21,588 nt of DNA from an uncultured Odoribacter sp. (GTDB lineage Bacteria > Bacteroidota > Bacteroidia > Bacteroidales > Marinifilaceae): the NCBI GenBank assembly GCA_947176455.1, contig CAMWQQ010000005.1, positions 1-21,588 on the forward strand, read 5' to 3'. The notes under the pieces are model-generated. The model saw only the letters and a program-made list of their open reading frames with translations. It did no database searches and had not been told where the DNA came from. Positions within the stretch are counted from its first letter, which is position 1, and each line of letters starts with the position of its first letter. Positions 3,887-7,973 of this stretch are shown piece after piece. Both the position numbers and the translations under genes were made by a program.

Positions 3887-5629
3887 ATGAACAGAGTATT
3901 GCGACTGGTCTGCCTGGTTTTGGTGGGTTGGACGTGTGGGGAGCGTTTGGTGGCGCAGGAAGTGGTTTATCGCGATTACGGGGCGATGAAGGATTCGCTC
4001 AGCGGACGAATGCTGGATTTCTGGCGCACGAAACGTTGCATCAACATCAATACGGTGCGCCGGGATTTGTTGTGGAATCTGAGCGAGGACGGACGGATAC
4101 GGGAGTCGCTGACGTTTCCGGCAAAACGGAAAAAGCATTTGGACGCCAAGGGTATCTATCGGATGTGCAAGGAGCATGTGCTTTCTTTTTGCATGATGGA
4201 ATACCGTCCGCAGACAAAAGACTACCTATCGCATCCTATGGCATCGGCGGTAGTCCTAACGGCTGACGGCGTGTGTGTGACGAATTACCATGTACTGGCG
4301 AATGTCATTCTTTCCGGTGCGTTGAAATATTATTGGCCGAATGACTTTATGCGCATGGTGATGACCTCGGAAGGGAAGGTGTATCCTGTCTGCCGGATAT
4401 TGGCGGCAGACCCGGTGAACGATTTTGCGATTTTCCAGGTAAATACGGGAGGCGACCGCTTATCGCCGATACCCTTGGGAGAGCCTTTGCCGGAAGGAAG
4501 CGAGGTGTATCATATCGGCAATCCGCAGGGAAATCTGTTTTACTTGACGCAGGGCATCGTGGCGCGGAACGTGTCGACGGTCGACAAGGAGAGTGGTCAT
4601 GCGAAACTGGAAATGGAGATTACGGCGGATTATGCGACGGGGTCGAGCGGAGGCGCGATTATTGACGAGTGCGGAAACTTGGCAGGGATTGTCGGTGGCA
4701 CTTATTCCGTATATGCCAATCCGCAGTTGTCCCGAAATTTCCAGATGTCCATTAAGAAAGCGGTGCCGGTGAAACTGATCAAAGAATGTTTTTCCACAGG
4801 TCGGCATGACCAACCGTTGCGGGAGGCGCTGAAAACGGGAACTGACACGGTTGCCGTTGCGGTGGACACGGTGATGTATGCCGTCCGTTATCTGTGGACG
4901 TACTGTTACGACAAGGAGCGTCATTTGACTTATCGGGAAGACCGGATGGTGTTGGTGGCGCCGGAGGTGACTCTGGACATGAGCTATCAGCCGATGGGCG
5001 AACGGAAATGGAGACGGCAACAGGGACAAGAAGCGCGGATGAAACGCGATTCTTCGCTGGCATATCACTTGACTCCTTCGTTTTATTACTATTATCCGCA
5101 AGAACAACGTTTGAAAAATACCTACCGGGTAGTTGACGAAGATTTTCTGTTGCGGGATACGCTGTGCAGTCCGTCGTGGGTGTTGACGGAAGAGGAAAAG
5201 AGCATTGGTGGTTATGCTTGTCGCAAGGCTTGTTGCGAGTACGGCGGACGCCGTTGGACGGCATGGTTTACTACCGACTTGCCCGGCATGGCGGCACCCC
5301 GTCACCTGACGGGATTGCCCGGTGTCGTATTGGAAGCATCGGATGAGGAGCGGGAGGTTGTGTGGACTTATAACGGCAAAGTAGAGGCGACGGAGGAAGA
5401 ACCGCTGTATATCCGTTTCCCGGAAATATTTTCGGGACTTCCGGCAGAGAAGTTTCCCATGATATTGCGTCTGTTCGCCTTGTCGGGTGCCAATAACTTT
5501 GGCGTGAGCGGTTACATTGAGGCTTCCGGCGTACTGAACAAGAATACCGCACCGCAGGTGCAGAAATTATTGCCTTCTACCGGTATCGATGCCTGTCGCG
5601 TGACCAATCCGATAGAACGGGCGAAATAA
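3887..5629 (+). CDS. Exported trypsin-like serine protease fused to a GLPGLI-family domain
   Basis: The 580-residue product has an N-terminal signal peptide (about residues 1-24, ending LVAQ). A chymotrypsin-fold protease domain follows at about 115-305. Its triad is visible: His135 in VTNYHVLANV, Asp179 in DPVNDFAIFQV and Ser254 in TGSSGGAIID. HIGNPQG and GGTYSVY are also typical of Deg/trypsin-like proteases. No PDZ domain is evident. The C-terminal half (about 325-575) matches the GLPGLI family: WVLTEEEKSIGGYACRKA, RRWTAWFTTDLP and HLTGLPGVVLEA. GLPGLI proteins are Bacteroidota-specific, exported and of unknown function, and normally stand alone. A strong AGGAGG lies 10 bases before the ATG, unusual in this phylum. 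The gene follows the thioredoxin gene by 14 bases. It probably processes peptides in the periplasm or at the cell surface. Confidence 0.85.
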   Translation: MNRVLRLVCLVLVGWTCGERLVAQEVVYRDYGAMKDSLSGRMLDFWRTKRCININTVRRDLLWNLSEDGRIRESLTFPAKRKKHLDAKGIYRMCKEHVLSFCMMEYRPQTKDYLSHPMASAVVLTADGVCVTNYHVLANVILSGALKYYWPNDFMRMVMTSEGKVYPVCRILAADPVNDFAIFQVNTGGDRLSPIPLGEPLPEGSEVYHIGNPQGNLFYLTQGIVARNVSTVDKESGHAKLEMEITADYATGSSGGAIIDECGNLAGIVGGTYSVYANPQLSRNFQMSIKKAVPVKLIKECFSTGRHDQPLREALKTGTDTVAVAVDTVMYAVRYLWTYCYDKERHLTYREDRMVLVAPEVTLDMSYQPMGERKWRRQQGQEARMKRDSSLAYHLTPSFYYYYPQEQRLKNTYRVVDEDFLLRDTLCSPSWVLTEEEKSIGGYACRKACCEYGGRRWTAWFTTDLPGMAAPRHLTGLPGVVLEASDEEREVVWTYNGKVEATEEEPLYIRFPEIFSGLPAEKFPMILRLFALSGANNFGVSGYIEASGVLNKNTAPQVQKLLPSTGIDACRVTNPIERAK

Positions 5630-5675
5630 ATCGTTATCGAATCAAATAGTCGCTTTTGCTGTTGCGAACCTGATT

Positions 5676-5717
5676 AAATCCGCAAGAATCACAATATATC
5701 GTGATTCCTGCGGATTT
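5676..5717 (+). terminator. Long hairpin, probable terminator after the protease gene
   Basis: Arms 5676-5692 and 5701-5717 are complementary over 17 bases with one A-C mismatch, around an 8-base loop. A T-rich but interrupted stretch follows. It lies 46 bases after the stop of the protease-GLPGLI gene, so it most likely ends the left operon. The lack of an uninterrupted T run leaves room for another role. Confidence 0.6.
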
Positions 5718-5730
5718 CAACTTTCAATTT

Positions 5731-5784
5731 TGTCGCAAAACGAAAAATTCACAACATGATGTGATTTTTTGTGTTGCTACGACA
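5731..5784 (+). repeat. Second imperfect palindrome upstream of the accessory cassette
   Basis: The inner arms 5743-5752 and 5761-5770 pair with one mismatch around an 8-base loop. The outer arms TGTCG (5731-5735) and CGACA (5780-5784) close the structure with bulges between. The core TCACAA..GTGATT resembles the core of the hairpin at 5676-5717. It lies just upstream of the cassette promoter and could be a second terminator or a protein-binding site. Confidence 0.5.
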
Positions 5785-5815
5785 AGGAATTTACAAAGAT
5801 TGTCGGAAATATTCT

Positions 5816-5846
5816 TTTGTTTATCGCATTTTAATTTTTATCTTCG
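5816..5846 (+). promoter_or_regulatory. Candidate promoter of the DUF3791/DUF3990 cassette
   Basis: A -33 box TTTG at 5816-5819 is followed after 19 bases by TATCTTCG at 5839-5846, one base away from the Bacteroidota -7 consensus TAnnTTTG. Transcription would start about 60 bases before the first ATG at 5911. No other promoter-like pair stands out between the left operon and the cassette. Confidence 0.5.
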
Positions 5847-5910
5847 CTTTTCAGAGGTTGAAGTAATTGGCAGTATGTGAACATTGCGAAGAAGTCATTA
5901 TAGAACGAAT

Positions 5911-6132
5911 ATGTATAGCATTCGAGATATAGCGGAATATGCGGTGATGCTTATTGAAGTTTTTGCAAAACGTTTTCATCTTACGTTGCAGGAGGCACAG
6001 CGTTACCTGAGCAAGTATCATGCCCTTGAACTGGTTCAGAAGCACTATGGTATGATGCACACTCAGACTTTTGAAGATATGGCGGAGACACTTGCGGTGT
6101 ATTGTCGGAGAAAAGGAGGGCAGGTGGCATGA
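5911..6132 (+). CDS. DUF3791-like small helical protein
   Basis: The ATG at 5911 gives 73 residues. A longer reading from TTG at 5884 adds nine residues that do not look conserved. The protein is predicted to be helical and has the pattern I associate with DUF3791: an AEYAVMLIEVFAKRF helix, LTLQEAQRYLSKY (a helix-turn-helix-like segment), then MMHTQ at residues 48-52 and a following acidic helix. DUF3791 proteins are small, of unknown function and usually encoded directly beside a DUF3990 gene. Here the stop codon overlaps the DUF3990 start by four bases (ATGA), so translation is coupled. A partner, inhibitor or antitoxin role is an inference from this pairing. It is shorter than most genes in the window and lies in A+T-richer DNA. 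Confidence 0.7.
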   Translation: MYSIRDIAEYAVMLIEVFAKRFHLTLQEAQRYLSKYHALELVQKHYGMMHTQTFEDMAETLAVYCRRKGGQVA

Positions 6133-6605
6133 AACTCTACCATGGTTCAAATATTGCCATTGAAACGATAGACCTGAATCTTTCTAGACCCAACAAAGAT
6201 TTCGGTAAAGCATTTTATCTGTCTGATGTCCGGTCGCAAGCAGAAGAGATGGCTATGCTTAAGGCGGATTTTCTGGGTGGAAAACCTGTCGTGAGCACTT
6301 TTGAGTTTGATGAAAGACTATTGACGGACGGTACATTGCGTTTTAAGCGTTTTGATGACTATTCGGAGGAATGGGCGCATTTTATTTTTGAGCATCGTAA
6401 TGAGCCAAAGGGCCAGACGCTTCATAGCAATGATGTCATTTACGGTCCAATCGCCAACGACAGGGTTGGGGCACAGATAAACAATTTCCGTAGTGGCTAC
6501 ATTTCATTTGAAACATTTCTTGAACGTATCAGATATATGAAAGGAATTACTTTCCAATATGCTTTCTGTAGTCCATTGGCAATCTCTAAACTTCGAAAAG
6601 TATGA
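6129..6605 (+). CDS. DUF3990 protein, putative ADP-ribosyltransferase-fold enzyme
   Basis: The ATG at 6129 gives 158 residues beginning MKLYHGSN, the family's own N-terminus. A perfect AGGAGG sits 9 bases upstream, which favours this start over the TTG at 6102. Features that recall the ADP-ribosyltransferase superfamily are LYHGS (His5, Ser7) as the NAD-binding strand and FGKAFYLSD (Tyr30) as the second conserved strand. The conserved DVIYGPIANDRV (102-113) and QYAFCSPLAISKL (143-155) segments are typical of DUF3990. If active, it would transfer ADP-ribose from NAD to an unknown protein, nucleic acid or small-molecule target in the cytoplasm; no signal peptide is present. The gene is flanked on both sides by small helical proteins with ATGA overlaps, as expected for an enzyme kept in check by a partner. 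The family call is good; activity is unproven. Confidence 0.75.
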   Translation: MKLYHGSNIAIETIDLNLSRPNKDFGKAFYLSDVRSQAEEMAMLKADFLGGKPVVSTFEFDERLLTDGTLRFKRFDDYSEEWAHFIFEHRNEPKGQTLHSNDVIYGPIANDRVGAQINNFRSGYISFETFLERIRYMKGITFQYAFCSPLAISKLRKV

Positions 6606-6835
6606 ATGTGACGGAACAGGAGTTTAAGTTTATGGTACAATCCTTGGCGACAGACCTTATTATGTTGTTAGTGCAGGAAGAGCGGATGACCATGTCAGAG
6701 GCATTTGATGTGCTTTATCAGTCGAATGTCTTTGCAAAGCTTTCAGAGCCGACCACAGGGCTTTACTACCAGGCTCCAAGGTATGTATTCAGCTATCTTA
6801 AGGAAGAAATGGGTCTTGCTGAAAGAAACGGGTAA
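6602..6835 (+). CDS. Small helical protein, third gene of the DUF3990 cassette
   Basis: This 77-residue product starts inside the DUF3990 stop codon (ATGA overlap at 6602-6605). It has two predicted helices (residues 5-25 and 30-46) followed by TGLYYQAPRYVFSYLKEEM. That aromatic block resembles small hypothetical proteins I associate with DUF3990/DUF3791 loci, but I cannot give it a firm family name. There is no signal peptide, membrane segment or metal motif. The coupled position argues for a stoichiometric partner of the DUF3990 protein. It might be a second antitoxin, a specificity subunit or an adaptor. It is clearly a real gene, given its overlap and codon pattern. Confidence 0.6.
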   Translation: MNVTEQEFKFMVQSLATDLIMLLVQEERMTMSEAFDVLYQSNVFAKLSEPTTGLYYQAPRYVFSYLKEEMGLAERNG

Positions 6836-6841
6836 CTTTCT

Positions 6842-6859
6842 GACAATCTTGTCTTTTTT
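6842..6859 (+). terminator. Possible weak terminator after the DUF3990 cassette
   Basis: GACA (6842-6845) pairs with TGTC (6850-6853) around ATCT and is followed by six T residues at 6854-6859. The stem is short, so termination may be partial, and read-through into rpsL is possible. Confidence 0.35.
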
Positions 6860-6879
6860 AGAAAAAAGTGAAAGGAATA

Positions 6880-6911
6880 TTTGGTGGTTATTAAAAATGG
6901 ATGTACATTTG
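6880..6911 (+). promoter_or_regulatory. Promoter of the str-S10-spc cluster (rpsL promoter)
   Basis: TTTG at 6880-6883 and a perfect TAnnTTTG box (TACATTTG) at 6904-6911 are 20 bases apart, the classic Bacteroidota primary-sigma promoter. Transcription should start near 6916-6919, leaving a leader of about 42 bases, A+T-rich and without an evident Shine-Dalgarno sequence. This should drive rpsL, rpsG, fusA and probably the following ribosomal genes. Confidence 0.85.
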
Positions 6912-6960
6912 CACTCCATTTTGGATAAAAGTATAATAAAATTTAAAGAGTACTTGTAAA

Positions 6961-7368
6961 ATGCCTACTATTCAACAGTTAGTAAGAAAAGGAAGAGTAA
7001 AGATCGAGGACAAGAGCAAGGCGCCTGCTTTGGATGCTTGCCCGCAGAGACGAGGAGTATGTGTACGTGTTTACACCACGACTCCGAAAAAACCGAACTC
7101 AGCGATGAGAAAGGTAGCACGTGTTAGATTGACCAACGGAAAAGAGGTGAATGCCTATATTCCGGGTGAGGGTCACAATCTGCAGGAACACTCCATCGTG
7201 TTGATTCGTGGCGGTCGTGTGAAGGACCTGCCGGGTGTGCGTTACCACTTGGTTCGCGGAACATTGGACGCTGCCGGTGTTACCGGTCGTTGCCAGGGAC
7301 GTTCCAAATACGGTGCGAAGAAACCGAAGCCGGGTCAGGCAGCTGCTCCAGCTAAAGGTAAGAAGTAA
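6961..7368 (+). CDS. rpsL: 30S ribosomal protein S12
   Basis: The 135-residue protein is a full-length S12 of the decoding centre. [10 protein letters not shown] keeps Lys43, and GGRVKDLPG keeps Lys88 and Asp89. These are the streptomycin-contact lysines and the aspartate that is methylthiolated in many bacteria, so nothing here predicts S12-based streptomycin resistance. The C-terminal tail is rich in lysine, alanine and proline, as usual in the phylum. It is the first gene after the perfect promoter at 6880-6911. Unlike many Bacteroidales, no rpoC lies directly upstream; the DUF3990 cassette occupies that side. Confidence 0.98.
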
Positions 7369-7425
7369 ACAAAAGTGATTAACAGGAATTGTGTTTATGA
7401 AGCGTTCCCGAAAAACAGTTGAGTA

Positions 7426-7443
7426 AATGGTTGTGAAACCGTT
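7426..7443 (+). promoter_or_regulatory. Hairpin with GTGA tetraloop in the rpsL-rpsG spacer
   Basis: Bases 7426-7432 pair with 7437-7443 (seven pairs, one G-U) and close on GTGA, a GNRA-type loop. It lies in an otherwise featureless 125-base spacer. The corresponding spacer in E. coli is where S7 represses its own operon. Regulation here is inference only. Confidence 0.4.
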
Positions 7444-7493
7444 GAAGACCGAAAAAGGGCAGCTTGACGAACAAATTCGTAAACGAAAAGAAG

Positions 7494-7973
7494 ATGAGAA
7501 AAACTAAACCGAAGAAGAGAATCCTGTTACCGGATCCGAAATTCAACGATGTACTGGTGACGAGGTTTGTTAATGACCTGATGGTGGACGGTAAAAAGAC
7601 TGTTGCGTTCAAAATCTTTTACGACGCACTGGATATCGTTGAGGAAAAAATGGCAAAAAAAGAAGAGAAATCTGCTCTGGACATCTGGAAGCAGGCATTG
7701 GAGAACATCACTCCCCAGGTGGAGGTGAAGAGCCGCCGTGTAGGTGGTGCCACTTTCCAGGTGCCGACTGAAATCAATCCGAGCCGTAAGAGAGCGATTT
7801 CCGTTAAAAATATGATTCTTTACTCCCGCAAACGTAGCGGACACGGCATGTCAGAGAAACTGGCTGCTGAAATCATGGCTGCTTACAAGGAAGAAGGTGC
7901 CGCTTTCAAGAAGAAAGAAGATACCCACCGTATGGCGGAAGCCAACCGGGCATTTGCACATTTCAGATTTTAA
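7494..7973 (+). CDS. rpsG: 30S ribosomal protein S7
   Basis: The ATG at 7494 gives 159 residues starting MRKTKPKKR, the usual N-terminus in Bacteroidota. An in-frame TTG at 7464 would add ten residues and is rejected. [24 protein letters not shown] and the C-terminal [15 protein letters not shown] are diagnostic. S7 nucleates assembly of the 30S head on 16S rRNA and contacts tRNA in the E site. The gene lies 125 bases after rpsL, a long spacer for this cluster, and 12 bases before fusA. Confidence 0.97.

Follow-up and report, generated by a model that had tools for sequence, protein, structure and literature searches.

Among the described systems closest to the locus considered here, RES-Xre modules consist of two genes (PMC2701414), DarTG pairs a toxin of the ADP-ribosyltransferase (ART) fold with an antitoxin (PMC9503650), and DUF3990 domains occur in the C-terminal region of Rhs effectors of the type VI secretion system (T6SS), accompanied by a predicted immunity gene (PMC4524185). 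We analyzed a three-gene cassette in a 21,588-nucleotide stretch of DNA from an uncultured Odoribacter sp. (GCA_947176455.1, contig CAMWQQ010000005.1, positions 1 to 21,588; hereafter the window). Its genes run in the same direction on the forward strand: A encodes a DUF3791 protein of 73 aa (5911..6132), D a DUF3990 protein of 158 aa with a predicted ART-like fold (6129..6605), and T a helical protein of 77 aa that has no Pfam family name (6602..6835). We consider it likely that these genes form a toxin-antitoxin module, in which D is a toxin of the ART type and the antitoxin is split between two genes, A and T. The basis for this proposal is the conservation of the trio, the homology of A and T, the fusions among the three proteins, and the one-sided loss of D.

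A search of 294 Bacteroidales genomes for the three proteins returned 60 D matches above 100 bits, the threshold at which they were counted, and both A and T were adjacent in 47 of these, as separate or fused domains and in the orders A-D-T, T-A-D, or D-T-A. The linkage of both small genes to D, which a preliminary description of this DNA had put forward for comparison, is thus conserved across genomes. Another six of the 60 had a single A-T-like partner of about 150 aa, with a C-terminal half matching T; in the proteins of this class (L009, L011, L012, L016, L017, L039, and L047) the A half scored 0.1-9.9 bits and the T half 7.8-36.2 bits, so the assignment depends on position and on the match to T, the A half scoring weakly. 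The remaining D matches were either cut by a contig end (4/60) or found without one or both partners (3/60). Among the latter, G211:C3 and G201:C49 had neither partner, and G277:C2 had only an A protein fused to a helix-turn-helix (HTH) domain; this locus (L066) reads HTH-A and then D, with no recognizable T. Two divergent members of the DUF3990 family (L034 and L061), each extended at length at the C-terminus, were also seen without an A or T partner. In a second set of 80 loci, taken from named genomes, both partners accompanied 77 of 78 D genes and the other was cut by a contig end, though this set cannot show loci lacking D because it was picked by similarity to D.

The arrangement of the genes recurs as well. 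The preliminary description had reported three small genes joined by two ATGA overlaps, and this was confirmed: the stop of A overlaps the start of D (6129..6132, forward strand) and the stop of D overlaps the start of T (6602..6605, forward strand). The overlaps are not due to chance, because 94 of 118 A-D junctions and 81 of 107 D-T junctions show the same overlap of -4. For this count, 138 D genes were examined, with the start taken as the methionine nearest the domain start, and D genes that lacked a clear start or a sufficiently close A or T fell outside it. Distances between the A, D, and T proteins of 102 trios were correlated (Mantel r 0.74 to 0.81), which shows joint inheritance only.

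Profile comparison indicates that A and T are distant homologues. Iterated A and T profiles merged, and separate profiles were built from upstream-only (48) and downstream-only (36) proteins; these aligned without gaps over 60 columns, with a local probability of 95.2% (E 2.9e-8, for one comparison) and a global probability of 76.4%. Profiles from the 102 trios, which overlap the earlier set, aligned at 84.6%, against 1.0% for a reversed T profile and no more than 1.8% for any of 20 T profiles with shuffled columns, and one A sequence compared with the T profile gave 12.7%, which is not significant. Structure models place four helices in A and in T alike. An arrangement with a helical protein on each side had been called less usual than a two-gene pair, rightly so; further, the two are homologous to each other, and in the Bacteroidales examined the family occurs as a rule in this trio.

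The three proteins are fused in several combinations. D and T form a single chain in 10 loci (L038, L042, L050, L056, L127, L132, L135, L144, L146, and L148), and T and A form a single chain before D in L023, in L024, and on plasmid pBF9343. Fusions of A to an Xre-type HTH made up 11 rows, representing 10 distinct loci and including one in Phocaeicola vulgatus ATCC 8482; three of these were checked by Pfam and the remainder read by eye, and the window's own A had no HTH match in Pfam. Two near-identical relatives (L190 and L191) encode HTH-A-T as one chain without D, and no A-D fusion was seen in the loci examined. Because T, not A, is found fused to D, we suggest that D would be freed by the loss of A. 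The D-T fusions would also suit a regulatory modifying enzyme that is not a toxin, with A and T as its subunits or adaptors, and relatives of L056 (120 matches listed) are nearly all 222-256 aa long, the length of a D-T fusion, in which T is not free. HTH-A fusions, A and T without D, fragmented D next to A and T, several copies per genome, and the occurrence of DUF3990 in Rhs effectors all speak against such an enzyme, which we regard as improbable.

Loss of genes from the trio is asymmetric. A and T occurred without intact D at 11 places in the 294 genomes (nine A-T, one T-A, and one with D in two pieces), whereas intact D was found with neither partner at two places and with A only at one. 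A role for D as a toxin fits this pattern, in which A and T are left without intact D (11) more often than intact D is left without either partner (2), an asymmetry expected of a toxin. Among the 11 places, G169 and G251 are near-identical, a D remnant persists at G110:C25, and G059:C75 is at the end of a contig. Another of the 11 is in the genome of the window itself, where an A+T pair without D adjoins an Obg GTPase gene (L198, G000:C173:1-4000). Other partial places had T alone (8), A alone (3), A with a D remnant (1), or a D remnant alone (1), and two of the 13 listed A places without intact D had A only (L188 and L200). L067, L075, L079, L101, and L160 have D split in two next to A and T, where sequencing error is possible; L075, L079, and L101 belong to the second locus set.

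Chance breakage would also favor loss of D, which is about twice the length of A or T, and the stronger point is that D is missing altogether where A and T lie next to each other. A three-domain model reached a predicted template modeling score (pTM) of 0.62, with only 5 A rows and 1 of 73 alignment rows misplaced, and it supports no assembly.

If the cassette is a toxin-antitoxin module, free D would be an NAD+-using enzyme of the ART fold that halts the growth of its own cell, either by modifying a target or by consuming NAD+. The homologous four-helix proteins A and T would jointly keep D inactive, presumably by direct contact, and the overlapping genes would couple translation, so that synthesis of D is accompanied by that of both partners; the enzyme would then be freed if A were lost or titrated. 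The preliminary idea of an enzyme checked by its small partners thus gains support from the predicted fold, the fusions, and the one-sided loss, on the level of sequences and models. More tentatively, and at somewhat short of even likelihood, the antitoxin may consist of two duplicates that form an unequal pair clamped around the ART toxin, such that T can be built into the toxin chain, only loss of A activates D, and solo A+T pairs protect in trans against incoming cassettes. The pair in the window's own genome would then protect it in this way. Control by a paralogous two-gene antitoxin, one half of which can be fused to the toxin, would be unusual, and the fusions offer a direct way to test the binding hypothesis.

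The DUF3791 and DUF3990 identities first given to A and D were upheld, with both proteins above their Pfam cut-offs: A matched DUF3791 (PF12668) at 62.9 bits (cut-off 25) and D matched DUF3990 (PF13151) at 147.4 bits (cut-off 32.2). T had no Pfam match above cut-off, including none to DUF3791, though the A and T profiles align; no cassette protein had an NCBIfam match above cut-off, and PHROGs gave weak matches only. The ART-like fold of D is predicted from the modeled structure of a D relative, to which RES/ParT toxins are the nearest solved folds, with middling scores, and D had no match to the RES family in Pfam at E 1 or less. Three D residues, H5, Y30, and Q143 (codons 6141..6143, 6216..6218, and 6555..6557, forward strand), are invariant in 30 sequences, and in a wider alignment of 143 the Y and Q are invariant and the H is present in 90% or more. 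By this conservation they may be, in that order, the active-site set of D; H-Y-[EDQ] is a clade name for ADP-ribosyltransferases (PMC9503650).

All three cassette proteins matched models of the PADLOC candidate system PDC-M13 (A at 7.6e-16, D at 3.9e-41, and T, to PDC-M13C, at 1.4e-14), and D also matched PDC-M10A. These matches raise the possibility of a phage-defense module acting by abortive infection, in which infection triggers D and either A or T senses the phage. Such a role would suit the 3324 counts of PDC-M13 in rumen genomes (PMC13356809), the phage defense provided by DarT, a toxin of the ART kind (PMC9503650), and the presence of A, D, and T on some viral contigs. However, the PADLOC label is that of a candidate, no trigger was seen, and two other PADLOC candidates showed no defense in one test (PMC12409345). 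Among six other window proteins scanned, the sole match to PADLOC models was the protease gene (3887-5629), with a weak resemblance to protease-domain models and no reverse transcriptase beside it; for the six proteins scanned, a defense island was rejected on these grounds. We find a phage-defense role rather unlikely, and it is compatible with the toxin-antitoxin proposal rather than opposed to it.

One search returned 3134 D homologues, and relatives of D were present on 67 plasmid records (28 predicted to be conjugative), 6 phage records, and 19 viral contigs. As many as 10 D matches occurred in one genome, and the window's genome (G000, 67.7% complete) had one. The trio is a small mobile gene set in gut Bacteroidales. 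The family is abundant and is carried on conjugative Bacteroides plasmids, yet no published experiment on it was found in the literature searched, some of which was available in part. The conjugative plasmid pBF9343 (L202) carries the T-A fusion and D, with a zeta toxin gene shortly downstream. Plasmid carriage, this nearby zeta toxin gene, and a cassette interval that differs between relatives are what might be seen if the cassette were an addiction module that keeps its plasmid or chromosome carrier without benefit to the host, and the A+T remnants fit loss of addiction. The studied copies are mostly on unassigned genome contigs, which argues against this explanation, and we hold it to be possible but somewhat doubtful.

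Comparison with relatives places nearly all of the cassette in an interval at 5637..6827 (no strand assigned). The protease gene has a close relative in genus-mate G003 with homology up to 5636, whereas rpsL of G003 is on another contig, and the rpsL side is common to the seven other genomes of the genus only from 6828-6860 onward, with the last bases of T overlapping in some. Because these flanking shared blocks end at 5636 and start at 6828-6860, the cassette fills a region that differs between relatives. In six aligned genus-mates, the rpsL upstream region had no nucleotide match to the cassette, and conservation of positions 6838-6859 was good in four and poor in the other two. The possible terminator first placed downstream of T did not hold up: no terminator was found on the forward strand in 5000-7500, and a terminator belonging to the cassette was rejected, as the stretch is part of the rpsL upstream region and is kept in four of the six genus-mates without a cassette there. 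A perfect promoter-like pair, TTTG-N20-TACATTTG at 6880-6911, is kept in all six, and we interpret it as the probable rpsL promoter. The promoter-like pair first reported upstream of the cassette is present on the forward strand at 5816..5846 (TTTG-N19-TATCTTCG, with TTTG at 5816 and TATCTTCG at 5839), but it has one mismatch and is weak because the window's forward strand has five pairs with at most one mismatch. Both pairs are of the Bacteroidetes type.

Comparison with L033 and L083 makes ATG 5911 (73 aa) the probable start of A, in preference to TTG 5884 (82 aa). The cassette was first described as visibly richer in A+T, and the direction is correct (42.3% G+C, against 47.2% for the window), but the contrast is mild because 6.5% of 952-base tiles, taken within the window, are equally low; a strongly foreign composition was ruled out. 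The protease gene at 3887-5629 joins a Trypsin_2 protease and a Porph_ging region in one gene (Pfam), and in G003 the two matches fall in separate open frames (L170 and L176).

Among known systems, PADLOC PDC-M13 has models that match all three cassette proteins, with T also weakly matching the end of the longer PDC-M10B profile (1.4e-3), and PDC-M13 is a candidate label for which the literature searched held no experiment. The DUF3990-bearing Rhs effectors are secreted proteins that target other cells, and the part of the source available describes neither A nor T beside them (PMC4524185). Their shared domain could mean that the cassette is a toxin and immunity gene left from a polymorphic secreted toxin, but we consider this very improbable, as the Pfam scan of window proteins detected no Rhs or delivery domain and D has its own start, which overlaps the A stop at most A-D junctions. 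RES-Xre and ParST resemble the cassette in that they supply the nearest solved folds to a D relative and some cassette-type A proteins carry an Xre-type HTH, whereas the cassette has two homologous partners and its D has no RES family match in Pfam. DarTG shares with it a toxin of the fold predicted for D, but the DarTG antitoxin is an enzyme that removes the mark, whereas A and T are small helical proteins.
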